IMG/VR virus record: IMGVR_UViG_3300046314_000158
Coordinates: 1-33,527 of that record
From: a virus
DNA: 33,527 bases
Strand: one strand, 5' to 3'
Below, one piece after another: positions 260 through 8,118 of the stretch. Under the pieces are notes generated by a model, which was not told the origin of the DNA, ran no database searches, and saw only the letters and a list, made by a program, of their open reading frames with translations. Numbering within the stretch: the first letter of the stretch is position 1; every line of letters starts with the position of its first letter. The position numbers and the translations under genes are program-made.

Positions 260-267
260 TAATTTCG
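260..267 (+). promoter_or_regulatory. Candidate promoter -7 element (TAATTTCG)
   Basis: TAATTTCG matches the Bacteroidetes -7 consensus TAnnTTTG at 7 of 8 positions. No perfect -33 TTG is present about 20 bases upstream (TTAG at 236-239 is the nearest). Initiation a few bases downstream would start the transcript at about 270, where the first hairpin of the structured RNA begins. Confidence 0.45.
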
Positions 268-270
268 CAG

Positions 271-366
271 TGTTACGGTCTGAAACCATAGGTAACAAAA
301 GAAACTTAAACAGGCTCTTATAATGAAAACGCTTCAGACCCGTTGGATTTATAGGAGCTTTTTTTA
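271..366 (+). ncRNA. Structured RNA: two hairpins with complementary loops, ending in a terminator
   Basis: Hairpin 1 pairs TGTTAC (271-276) with GTAACA (292-297). Hairpin 2 pairs 312-323 with 349-360, 12 bp including G-U pairs, followed directly by a T run through 365, as in an intrinsic terminator. A small inner stem (328-331 with 341-344) presents the loop. The loop of hairpin 1 holds GGTCTGAA (277-284), an exact complement of TTCAGACC (333-340) in the loop of hairpin 2, so an 8-bp kissing interaction or pseudoknot is possible. Together with the -7-like element just upstream this reads as an independent RNA of about 95 nt, or as a transcription-attenuating leader for the gene at 379, whose ATG is 13 bases beyond the T run. 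I do not recognise a known RNA family. Confidence 0.6.
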
Positions 367-378
367 TTAATAAAATTT

Positions 379-579
379 ATGAAAGAATTACAAACTATTG
401 AGTTTATAGCTAATAAGCATTACTCTGGTCATTACACTATTTTAAAATTTACAAATGGATTTAAGTTTTCATTTGGAACTGTTACAAAACGTGAAGAAAT
501 TTACGATCTTAATTTATACGATAATTTAAGAGATTCACTTATTAATGGTATTCAATTTCATATTTGTAAAGACTTATAA
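379..579 (+). CDS. Hypothetical protein, 66 aa
   Basis: The first gene after the structured RNA, two bases before the replication-initiator-like gene at 582, so the two are probably co-transcribed. The product has no signal peptide, membrane segment or cysteine pair, and reads like a compact alpha/beta protein. If the hairpin at 312-360 terminates transcription, expression of this gene and the replication genes depends on readthrough. Family not recognised. Confidence 0.6.
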   Translation: MKELQTIEFIANKHYSGHYTILKFTNGFKFSFGTVTKREEIYDLNLYDNLRDSLINGIQFHICKDL

Positions 580-581
580 CA

Positions 582-1211
582 ATGGCAAAAGAATTACCAT
601 ACTTTCGTTTTACAGTCCAGGATTGGCAGAACGGTAAAATTAGTTTAGAATCATTTGAAATACAGGGATTGTTTATTTCTGTATGTGGTTATTATTGGAT
701 TAATGACTGCAATTTAACTTTAGCAATACTACAAAAAAAGTTTAACAATGCTACAACTTTGCTTAAACAACTAATTGAACTAGGTATAATTAAGCACGAA
801 AATAGACACGATAAAGTAGAAATTGAGTTTTTAAATATACAGTATGATTTACTAAGTGAGAAACGTAAAGCTAGGCAGTACGCAGGTTCTAAGGGTGGCA
901 AAGCTAAAGCAAACGTTAAGCAAAAAGGTAGCTATAAAGATAAGGATAAAGATAAGGATAAAGATAAAGATAAAGATAAGGATAATTTAATACCTGATTT
1001 TTCTGATTTTAAAGTTTACGCTTTTTTACATAAACCAAATGTTTGTGAAACTGATTTGAAATTTAAATACGATAGTTGGATTGCAAACGATTGGAAAAAT
1101 GGAAATGATAAGAAAATAAAAAACTGGAAATCTTCATTACTAAACACATTGCCATTTATCAAAGATGGATTAAACTCAAACATAACAGCACCCTTAAAAA
1201 TGGTTTACTAA
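582..1211 (+). CDS. Phage replication initiator / replisome-organiser-like protein
   Basis: 209 aa. The N-terminal part (about 1-95) reads as a winged-helix domain with a helix pair ending LIELGIIKHE and a basic segment at 90-115, typical of phage replication proteins. A linker of eight Lys-Asp pairs (residues 119-134) separates it from a C-terminal part ending in NWKSSLLNTLPFIK, similar to the C-terminus of DnaD-like replisome organisers, which bind helicase or loader. It lies immediately upstream of the primase-helicase gene (one base between stop and ATG), which supports a role in loading that enzyme at the phage origin. Assignment rests on architecture and context, not on catalytic residues. 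A generic HTH regulator is the alternative. Confidence 0.6.
   Translation: MAKELPYFRFTVQDWQNGKISLESFEIQGLFISVCGYYWINDCNLTLAILQKKFNNATTLLKQLIELGIIKHENRHDKVEIEFLNIQYDLLSEKRKARQYAGSKGGKAKANVKQKGSYKDKDKDKDKDKDKDKDNLIPDFSDFKVYAFLHKPNVCETDLKFKYDSWIANDWKNGNDKKIKNWKSSLLNTLPFIKDGLNSNITAPLKMVY
936..983 (+). repeat. Hexanucleotide tandem repeat coding (Lys-Asp)8
   Basis: Eight consecutive 6-bp units of the form AARGAT, in frame within the replication-initiator-like gene. Changes in unit number would lengthen or shorten the linker by two residues without shifting frame. The K/D alternation gives a charged flexible or helical linker. Confidence 0.9.
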
Positions 1212-1212
1212 C

Positions 1213-3006
1213 ATGGCAGATTTAAAAGTTATAAACCTAGCGGATAAAAAAGAATACATCATTGATGCCCAAAAGATGGGAGAAAATACAATGACTTGCC
1301 CAGTATGTTCAGAAAGCAGAAAAAAGAAAACCGATAAATGTTTTGGTTATAATCTTCGTAAGGGAGCTGGGCGTTGCAATCATTGTGGGGTTGTTTTAGT
1401 GGAATTTAAAGATTTTGAGAAAAAACCCACACAAATTGAATATAAGAAACCTAAGCCTCAAAACGTTAGTAAGTATTCACCTGACTGTTTAAAGTTCTTT
1501 ACGAGCCGTAAAATTAGCGAAAACACCCTATTGCAGTTAAAAGTTTCAGAAGCGATTGAATGGATGCCAAAAGCACAAGGTAATATTCCAACAATTCAAT
1601 TTAACTATTTCCGTAATGGTGAGCTGATAAATGTTAAATCTCGTGGCAAAAATAAAGATTTTAAACTTTTCAAAGATGCTGAACTGATTTTTTATAACCT
1701 AGACTGTACAATCAATAATGAAAATATTGTAATTGTTGAGGGAGAAATGGATGCTTTAGCGGTTTATGAATGTGGTATAAAAAACGTTATATCAGTCCCT
1801 AATGGTGCAGGATTAGGTAAAATAAACTTTGAATATTTAGATAACTGTATTGATAGTTTTAGCGATAATACGACATTCATTTTAGCTTTAGATAATGATA
1901 CTGCTGGTCTTAATCTTCAAAATGAACTAGCAAGACGTTTGGGTTTTGAAAACTGCAAAAAGGTAACTTTCAAAGATTGTAAAGATGCAAACGACTGTTT
2001 AATAAAATACGATAAGCAAACGGTTATTAACTGTATTCAAGAAGCTAAAGAGTTTCCAATAGTAGGGGTTTTTAATGCTAAAGATATTGAAGCTGATATT
2101 TACAACTATTACAACAATGGTTTACCTAATGGATGCGGTATAAATATGGCTGAACTTGATATGCACATTCGATTTCAAGAGGGTTATTTAACAACCATTA
2201 CTGGAATACCCGGACATGGTAAATCTGAATTTTTAGACTTTATCATTTGTCGGTTAAATATTTCACATGGTTGGAAAATTGCAATGTATAGTCCCGAAAA
2301 TCACCCTTTAGAATTACACTTTAGCAAGTTTGCAGAGAAAATGATTGGTAAACCATTTGAAGGTAGCAACCGATTAAGCCCTATTGATTTATCTAATATG
2401 ATAGATTACCACGCAAACAACTTCTTTTTTATTAATCCTGAGAAAGATTTTAAACTTGAAAATATTTTAGATAGTGTTAGGCAGTTAGTACGTAAAAAAG
2501 GAGTTAAGGCGTTTGTTATTGATGCGTGGAATAAATTAGACCACCAATATACTACAAATGAAACAAAGTATATTAGTGAGCAGCTTGATAAAATTACACG
2601 CTTTTGTGAGGTTAATAAAGTTCACTGTTTTTTAGTTGCTCATCCGACAAAAATTCAAAAGGATAAATCAACTGGAAAATATGAGATTCCAAATTTATAC
2701 AGTATAAGCGGATCGGCTAACTTTTACAATAAAACGGCAAACGGTTTAACTGTTTATAGGGATTTTGATACTGGCATAACTGAAATTTATATCCAAAAAG
2801 TAAAGTTTAAACATTGGGGTAAAGTTGGATGTGTTCAATTTGCATGGGACTATACAAACGGTAGATACTACAAAGGAACTCCAAATTATGATAGCTGGCT
2901 AAATATTGAACAACCTCCATTACAAAACAATACTAGTTTCTTAAATGAAGCTGAACCAAAATTACCAGACCTAATAATATCCACCGATAACGATGAGGCG
3001 TTTTAA
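1213..3006 (+). CDS. Bifunctional DNA primase-helicase (T7 gp4 / Twinkle type)
   Basis: 597 aa with three modules in order. (1) An N-terminal zinc finger with Cys29-x2-Cys32 and Cys55-x2-Cys58, as in phage primases. (2) A TOPRIM domain with the VEGEMDAL glutamate motif near residues 174-181 and ALDNDTAG near 225-232, which supply the metal-binding acids for primer synthesis. (3) A RecA/DnaB-type helicase with Walker A GIPGHGKS near 330-337, Walker B FVIDAW near 433-438, and LVAHP near 473, the motif that couples NTP hydrolysis to DNA. Such proteins form rings that unwind DNA 5' to 3' and make RNA primers at the fork. Length and order match the T7 gp4 family. Its stop is only about 20 bases upstream of the first cassette boundary. 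Confidence 0.93.
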   Translation: MADLKVINLADKKEYIIDAQKMGENTMTCPVCSESRKKKTDKCFGYNLRKGAGRCNHCGVVLVEFKDFEKKPTQIEYKKPKPQNVSKYSPDCLKFFTSRKISENTLLQLKVSEAIEWMPKAQGNIPTIQFNYFRNGELINVKSRGKNKDFKLFKDAELIFYNLDCTINNENIVIVEGEMDALAVYECGIKNVISVPNGAGLGKINFEYLDNCIDSFSDNTTFILALDNDTAGLNLQNELARRLGFENCKKVTFKDCKDANDCLIKYDKQTVINCIQEAKEFPIVGVFNAKDIEADIYNYYNNGLPNGCGINMAELDMHIRFQEGYLTTITGIPGHGKSEFLDFIICRLNISHGWKIAMYSPENHPLELHFSKFAEKMIGKPFEGSNRLSPIDLSNMIDYHANNFFFINPEKDFKLENILDSVRQLVRKKGVKAFVIDAWNKLDHQYTTNETKYISEQLDKITRFCEVNKVHCFLVAHPTKIQKDKSTGKYEIPNLYSISGSANFYNKTANGLTVYRDFDTGITEIYIQKVKFKHWGKVGCVQFAWDYTNGRYYKGTPNYDSWLNIEQPPLQNNTSFLNEAEPKLPDLIISTDNDEAF

Positions 3007-3949: not shown

Positions 3950-4915
3950 GATTTAATTAGCACAAAACTTTAATCGAAGAACTAAAAAAAAGAATTTAAA
4001 AAATGAGCGAGGGACAAATAGAATTATCATTTTGGGTTACGAATGTTGATGCTAAAATAGAAGCATTTAAGAACCGAGAAGCAAAAGCAAAAAACACTTT
4101 TGTATTATCTGAAATTGACAAGGCAGTAGCATACAAATTTATAGCACAATATCATTATTTAAAAGATGCTAAATTTTTTGCTAAATACTGCTACGGAATT
4201 TTTATAGATAATGTTTTGGTTGGTTGTGCAACTTACTCAAATCCGCAAGGAATAGTAGCAATGAAAAGTTGGTTTGGACTTGAAAATGATAATCAAGACG
4301 TGTTGGAATTGAGCCGACTTTGTATGTTGCCAAAGCTAAACGGAACAAATGCCACAAGCTACTTACTTGGTAACTCATTGAGATTATTAAAAACAAAACA
4401 AGTAAAAGCTGTTATAACTTTGGCAGATGATTCAAGGCACGTTGGCTCAATTTATCAAGTGTGCAATTTCAAATATTACGGTTTGACTGATAAAAAAACC
4501 GACTTTTATACTGCCGATGGAAGAATAAACCCAAGAGGACAAACGAAAGATATAAAAGGGGTTTGGCTACCAAGAACGCAAAAGCACAGGTATTGCTACA
4601 CACTTGATGAAAGTTTGATTTGCTTATTGAAAGAACAACCAAAACCAAATGTAGGAATGATAAATAATTACGAATGTTGCAACCAAAATAATAAAGTGTT
4701 TGATAAACGGAATAAGGAATGGTATAGTTGCCCAAAATGCACTACTTCTATTTCTTTTTTAGGAGGGGAAAATTTTTTAAATTCTTTTTCTCACGAAAGT
4801 TCAATTGAAGCACAAAAGTAGTATTGGCTATAACGTTTTGCGGCTTTGCTCGTCGTTTGCGTAATCCGCGTAAACACGTTTGAGCAGAAGCATCGCAAAT
4901 GCGGCAAAGGTGCTG
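3937..4915 (+). mobile_element. Integron-like gene cassette 3 (carries Mom-like gene)
   Basis: 979-bp unit holding the Mom-like gene at 4003-4821. The start GTTATAGCCAGTAC (3936-3949) and end GTATTGGCTATAAC (4821-4834) are complementary at 13 of 14 positions. The 66-nt leader contains an AT-rich sequence (3955-3982) that recurs in the loop of attC-like site 1. Confidence 0.78.
4003..4821 (+). CDS. Mom-like DNA adenine modification protein (anti-restriction)
   Basis: 272 aa. Reads as a GNAT-fold Mom family protein: HYLK near residues 51-54, a core with FAKYCYGIF (59-67) and LVGCATYSNP (72-81), the family signature ELSRL (102-106), NATSYLLGNSLRLL (116-129), ADDSRHVGSIYQ (141-152), and a closing LPRTQKHRY (189-197). 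In phage Mu, Mom converts adenine to an N6-carbamoylmethyl (acetamido) form and shields phage DNA from many restriction enzymes. A C-terminal extension (about 205-272) with C225/C226 and C243-x2-C246 may bind zinc. It is carried alone in cassette 3. The family assignment rests on recalled motifs; activity is inferred. Confidence 0.8.
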   Translation: MSEGQIELSFWVTNVDAKIEAFKNREAKAKNTFVLSEIDKAVAYKFIAQYHYLKDAKFFAKYCYGIFIDNVLVGCATYSNPQGIVAMKSWFGLENDNQDVLELSRLCMLPKLNGTNATSYLLGNSLRLLKTKQVKAVITLADDSRHVGSIYQVCNFKYYGLTDKKTDFYTADGRINPRGQTKDIKGVWLPRTQKHRYCYTLDESLICLLKEQPKPNVGMINNYECCNQNNKVFDKRNKEWYSCPKCTTSISFLGGENFLNSFSHESSIEAQK

Positions 4916-7581: not shown

Positions 7582-8118
7582 TTACTTAACTATTAAAGCC
7601 GTTCCAAATAAAGCAGCACCGATAACAGAGCCGTGAAGTAAACCCTTCCAATATCCTTTGCGTTTAACTTTCGGTAAAGTATCAATTAACTGAACTATCC
7701 TAGTCGAATCTATCGTTATATGGCTTTGTTTTAATCCTATCTTATTAACCAACGCTTTTATAATAGTATCTTTATTACTGAGCAACGAATCATTAGCCGA
7801 ATTTAAGTTACCAAAGGCATTGTATAGCGTTATTAATGATTGTTGACATAATGTGTCAGTAATATATAAACTATCATAAACAGTCTTTACGCGCACTACA
7901 TATTTGATTTTAGTAACGGTTAATATAGAATCTTTGCGAAACGCTTGTTTTAATTTAACGTCCTGCTTTTTTTCAGCTTTGTAAATCGTATCGTGGTTTG
8001 GAGTAGTAACTTTTGGATCATGCTCACACCCCTTACAATTAGCAAATATGACAACCGTTACTAAAACAGTTAGTAAATACCATTTGATTGAATCCCAAAT
8101 TGATTTGATAATTTCCAT
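7582..8118 (-). CDS. Candidate unimolecular spanin (lysis protein)
   Basis: 178 aa. The N-terminus has a hydrophobic segment (about 13-26) followed by a cysteine at 28 (context FANC), resembling a lipoprotein signal. The middle (about 40-150) is charged, Ser/Thr-rich and helical. The C-terminus (about 158-177) is a glycine-rich hydrophobic segment. A lipobox plus a C-terminal membrane segment is the layout of u-spanins, which join inner and outer membranes in the last step of Gram-negative host lysis. Position after the holin-like gene (one-base overlap) and endolysin supports this. The residue before Cys is Asn, not a typical Gly/Ala/Ser, so lipidation is uncertain; a two-membrane-segment i-spanin-like protein is the alternative. 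Confidence 0.55.
   Translation of the reverse strand: MEIIKSIWDSIKWYLLTVLVTVVIFANCKGCEHDPKVTTPNHDTIYKAEKKQDVKLKQAFRKDSILTVTKIKYVVRVKTVYDSLYITDTLCQQSLITLYNAFGNLNSANDSLLSNKDTIIKALVNKIGLKQSHITIDSTRIVQLIDTLPKVKRKGYWKGLLHGSVIGAALFGTALIVK

Follow-up and report, generated by a model that had tools for sequence, protein, structure and literature searches.

What is the function of a short stretch of DNA that lies directly in front of the replication genes of a phage and can be folded as RNA into two hairpins with matching loops? The window analysed here is the 33,527-base IMG/VR virus contig IMGVR_UViG_3300046314_000158, and the original prediction, made for its positions 271 to 366, was that two hairpins with an exact 8-nt loop-loop complement, preceded by a -7-like element and followed by a T run, form either a phage small RNA of about 95 nt or an attenuator that decides readthrough into the replication genes, with the loop complement stabilizing the terminator or competing with it. 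We first asked whether these parts are present, and found all of them in the predicted places, on the plus strand and in the following order:

260..267 (+), -7 promoter-like box TAATTTCG, with one mismatch to the Bacteroidota consensus TAnnTTTG (PMC7366714)
271..297 (+), hairpin H1, stem TGTTAC 271-276 / GTAACA 292-297, close to the predicted RNA 5' end
277..284 (+), kissing strand S1, GGTCTGAA, in the loop of H1
298..311 (+), A-rich linker
312..360 (+), terminator-type hairpin H2, with the outer stem 312-323/349-360, the internal loop UGAA/GGAU 324-327/345-348 and the inner stem 328-331/341-344
333..340 (+), kissing strand S2, TTCAGACC, in the apical loop of H2
359..365 (+), U tract directly behind H2
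379..579 (+), first ORF behind the leader, 66 aa, without a family match, starting 18 nt behind H2
582..1211 (+), replication-region protein of 209 aa (phrog_29280, unknown function)
1213..3006 (+), TOPRIM DNA primase/helicase of 597 aa

The symmetric internal loop of H2 could form tandem sheared G-A pairs with a U-U pair; its UGA/GA is kept in several window-type relatives and might be a protein site or a bend. Elsewhere in the window, an in-frame run of GATAAG/GATAAA units (936-986) codes for Lys-Asp repeats inside the 209-aa protein, and matches to relatives often stop there, while the protein encoded at 4003-4821 (+) has a PHROG match to Mom-like DNA modification proteins (phrog_1384, E 4e-34).

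Is this arrangement more than a set of chance inverted repeats near an ordinary terminator? S1 and its complement occur nowhere else in the window, but taken alone the stretch is not striking, as nested folding gives z = -1.5 and a two-copy 8-mer arises in 6 of 100 shuffles. No match at or above the gathering score was found in Rfam release 15, either in the window or in eight member loci, and a permissive search gave only a chance Hovlinc match on the other strand. Exact DNA similarity in the phage collection was likewise not found. However, a DNA pattern scan of IMG/VR for the loop pair, together with loci found through the primase and the 209-aa protein, revealed the same design first with other stem letters and then with other kissing letters. 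A scan for a promoter box, H1, a loop-loop complement, H2 and a T-rich tail gave 70 hits at score 30 or more against 7 in shuffled sequence, although many of these loci are near-copies. A stricter catalogue, which required an ORF within 90 nt and at least 6 T in 12, comprises 51 unique elements with 33 different kissing sequences (one of the elements, L081, was discarded; numbers with the prefix L denote individual loci), whereas 14 hits came from shuffled DNA without the ORF condition; 33 elements remained after similarity was reduced. Matches at L113, L115 and L116, as well as that at L081, are due to chance or unsupported and were not used.

Since these scans demand complementarity, they cannot prove it. 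Therefore, we masked the kissing letters and searched for homologs with nhmmer. Among 31 listed comparisons with a changed kissing sequence, pairing was complete in 19, and we read the other 12 as the same pairs in a shifted register. MAFFT alignments, which know nothing of the structure, gave the same answer. In alignment A2 (9 sequences) the kissing helix is 97.2% and the outer H2 stem 87.0% paired, 7 of 12 outer pairs show double-sided changes, and the covariation score is 0.471 against 0.181 for shuffles, with 0 of 500 shuffles as high. In A3, a subfamily of 11 rows (10 distinct), the H1, kissing and inner H2 helices are 100% and the outer H2 helix 95.6% paired, with 33 double-sided changes, 0 of 500 shuffles as high and one kissing pair occurring as A-U, U-A, C-G and G-C. 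In A5, which replaced an alignment (A4) that included a wrongly placed row (L157), the kissing helix is again 100% paired. The H1-type stems of A3 and A5 are 100% paired with double-sided changes, and sliding the partner by 1-3 columns destroys the signal in all three alignments. A natural double swap is also found among otherwise similar leaders of cultured Flavobacterium phages, as hattifnatt and lillamy carry GTGAGACG:CGTCTCAC, while mymlan and snusmum carry GTGGAACG:CGTTCCAC. Sequence changes that break the pairing without compensation, which had been named beforehand as the condition that would speak against the structure, were looked for among the relatives and no clear case was found. 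Thus, the observation behind the original prediction is confirmed, and the covariation refutes the chance explanation, in spite of the unremarkable single-sequence fold.

How widely is the element distributed, and in front of which genes? The same architecture precedes primase, helicase and single-strand-annealing genes, as well as free-standing HNH and GIY-YIG endonuclease genes, in many phages of Bacteroidota. Among cultured phages, hattifnatt9-1 has three copies, before a helicase gene, a NUMOD4-HNH endonuclease gene and the primase operon; Tenacibaculum phage JQ has one copy with 9-bp kissing; Cellulophaga phage phi10:1 has one copy before the primase operon; and the element is also present in the Flavobacterium phages lillamy9-1, mymlan6-1 and snusmum9-1, in F. 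columnare phage FCL-2, and in elemoA 7-9A, where it precedes gp20-gp19-gp18, the last being the primase. The elemoA copy was missed with the settings of the promoter-anchored scan and was found by a scan that did not require a promoter, whereas no leader was found in Riemerella phage PJN03. A window-type model, R1, trained without the cultured members, finds the hattifnatt, snusmum, JQ and phi10:1 copies at E < 1e-3. Contigs placed in Lutibacter and Chitinophagaceae MAGs also carry the leader before a primase gene or in its neighborhood, and a contig assigned to a Rickettsiales MAG (L196, RXKF01000048.1), probably a misbinned Bacteroidota phage contig, encodes a primase 56% identical to that of the window and a leader-like element at 7699. 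To find out whether the element could be a host chromosomal regulator, we searched R1 against 249 genomes from the family of G021 (the genome behind locus L207, titled a Lutibacter MAG) and obtained one weak match, which is a plain terminator; the element therefore looks phage-restricted, within the limits of strict filters and a window-type model that would miss distant types.

Free-standing, homing-type endonuclease genes (GIY-YIG, NUMOD4-HNH) are often preceded by the leader, which suggests that it may travel with mobile genes. In L171, L177, L183 and L185, just upstream of position 1501, inspection by eye indicates a 9-11-bp pairing between the RNA 5' region and the loop of the terminator-like hairpin with a weak or absent H1, a possible pseudoknot-only variant. 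At the equivalent place (about 480-640), L024 has a different structured leader, with ACGAA/TTCGT and CTCTAAC/GTTAGAG complementarities, that does not fit the two-hairpin scheme. Leaders whose ORF starts 39-46 nt behind H2 (L119 after 399, L159 10348-10385, L161 14450-14490) carry a second short palindrome such as CGGTAACTTAAAACCG or GGTAATCTTTAAACC before a gene for a small protein of 65-78 aa, possibly a second control site.

Does the element act in cis as a leader, or is it a small RNA acting in trans? In 33 of 33 non-redundant catalogued copies H2 ends 5-22 or 39-46 nt before an ORF start, although an ORF within 90 nt was a condition of the catalogue. In the promoter-free scan, hits with a promoter box had an ORF within 60 nt in 23 of 27 cases, and hits without one in 24 of 148. 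A TTG lies 22-23 nt upstream of the box in 14 of 33 members, a feature the scan did not ask for, but in the window itself this element is weak. Copies within one phage have different kissing sequences, which argues for action in cis. A stand-alone RNA of about 95 nt acting in trans, with the following gene reached only by accidental readthrough, would be in agreement with the promoter, the terminator-type 3' end and the compact fold, but we consider it very unlikely, since there is no conserved single-stranded seed, the loop letters are consumed by the cis pairing and differ at each copy, and the position right before an ORF is fixed. A leader peptide was also considered, as an ATG inside H2 (323-325) opens a short frame in the window, but L054 reads ATG AAT TGA and L117 has ATTGA, so it is not conserved. 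With respect to an antisense RNA from the other strand, opposite-strand promoter boxes were not enriched behind H2 (0.12 against 0.09 per 150 nt).

Does H2 resemble a terminator? A hairpin directly followed by a U tract is present in the window (312-365), and in the family the sequence behind H2 is T-rich (0.76-0.85 at positions +0 to +4), with a run of at least five T in 30 of 33 members against 20 of 618 control windows at other ORFs of these phages; these U-tract and ORF statistics are partly shaped by the scan conditions. A few members have an interrupted U tract (L114 CGTTTCTATTT, L117 GCATTTTT). Linkers are mostly 10-22 nt long (two of 30-31) and 85% A+T. It could be argued that the compact kissing fold near +1, where H1 lies within a few nucleotides of the predicted start in most members, is a shield that keeps nucleases off the phage mRNA, and that the U tract is merely part of an A/U-rich translation start. 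However, the sequence behind H2 is T-rich first and becomes A-rich only from about +9, which looks like a terminator rather than a generic A/U-rich start region, and other ORFs of these phages lack such runs; this reading is possible but rather unlikely.

Taken together, the interpretation offered in the original prediction is partly supported. A structured RNA starting at a predicted promoter, a functional loop-loop pairing, a terminator-type second hairpin and a place directly before replication genes are supported, and of the two options offered a leader/attenuator fits better than a trans-acting small RNA. Competition of the loop complement with the terminator is disfavored, because the paired letters lie in the loop of H2 and not in its stem, and both helices are conserved together, so they can coexist. 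That the element belongs to a widespread family with private loop codes could not be seen from the single sequence.

We favor, with no more than even confidence, the following model. RNA polymerase would start at the TAnnTTTG-type promoter of the replication operon and make H1 first; as the ascending arm and loop of H2 emerge, the H1 loop would pair in cis with the H2 loop (8 bp here, 6-11 bp in relatives), forming a compact kissing complex at about the moment polymerase reaches the U tract. H2 and the U tract would then work as an intrinsic terminator that lets only part of the transcripts through, and the kissing would tune this decision, most likely by anchoring and speeding up H2 (favoring termination) rather than displacing it. 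The 3' end of S2 lies 20-31 nt (mostly 20-28) before the end of the U tract, from which we infer, assuming the usual polymerase footprint, that S2 leaves polymerase just before the termination decision. The kissing duplexes are worth about -5 to -14 kcal/mol as isolated duplexes. The structure, its covariation, the promoter and gene context, the U tract and the spread among phages are demonstrated by our analysis, whereas termination at the U tract, attenuation, the direction of the effect, any input that changes it and any binding partner, polymerase included, are inferred, as no transcript data for these phages were found. No mutually exclusive antiterminator was found, so a switch in the classical sense is not demonstrated, and the same anatomy would suit an RNA that acts on polymerase directly or protects the 5' end.

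A more far-reaching possibility, which we regard as unlikely but not excluded, is that the phage marks transcripts from its own replication and mobile-gene promoters with a sequence-free RNA tag, a cis kissing fold near the 5' end that polymerase or a phage protein reads to decide termination at the built-in terminator, so that own-promoter transcripts are told apart from readthrough transcripts, while the private pairing code of each copy prevents crosstalk. The leader would be a widespread RNA control element in phages of a major bacterial phylum, on whose phage gene regulation we found little. It is apparently undescribed, as the literature searched, limited to open-licence papers, contained no description, although an earlier one elsewhere cannot be excluded. 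As architecture and complementarity rather than letters are conserved, ordinary homology or Rfam searches miss it. Since cultured, sequenced phages carry it, including pairs with a natural compensatory swap, the mechanism is directly testable, and natural leaders with freely exchangeable kissing codes could be useful as orthogonal regulators.

How does the element compare with known systems? The HK022 put RNA (PMC9378689) is also phage-encoded and promoter-proximal, comprises two stem-loops in about 70 nt and lies in front of early-gene operons, with two sites per phage, putL lying just behind its promoter. It binds the beta' zinc-binding domain of RNA polymerase and suppresses downstream termination. 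By analogy, our leader might bind polymerase near the RNA exit and turn it into a form that passes its own and downstream terminators, with the kissing complex supplying a shape that polymerase or a phage protein reads; free drift of the kissing letters with strict complementarity suits such recognition. We consider this rival possible but rather unlikely, because put is not known to carry a terminator U tract, whereas nearly all members here have one, and because put copies share sequence, while these barely do: the hattifnatt9-1 copies differ in stems and in kissing sequences (GCTTCGAC, GTCGTCG, GTGAGACG). No kissing-loop pairing is mentioned in the description of put that we consulted. The pT181-type attenuators share the logic of a 5' leader with an upstream hairpin and an intrinsic terminator before a replication gene, with loop-loop contact as part of the mechanism, but there an antiterminator sequence takes the 5' half of the terminator stem and an antisense RNA supplies the kissing partner (PMC4878617), while here the partner is in cis and contacts the terminator loop, and the H2 stem and the kissing helix are conserved together. 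The leader qualifies as a member of neither system. The ColE1 RNAI/RNAII complexes, with the protein Rop, contain similar loop-loop helices of roughly 7 bp, and shape-specific recognition by a protein is possible in principle here as well, but the ColE1 kissing occurs between two RNAs, and here within one leader. Finally, riboswitches with docked hairpin loops, e.g. the purine riboswitch, also combine loop-loop docking of two hairpins in an mRNA leader with an expression platform; in our family no conserved ligand-binding core or consensus sequence is visible, and the genes downstream are phage replication and endonuclease genes.
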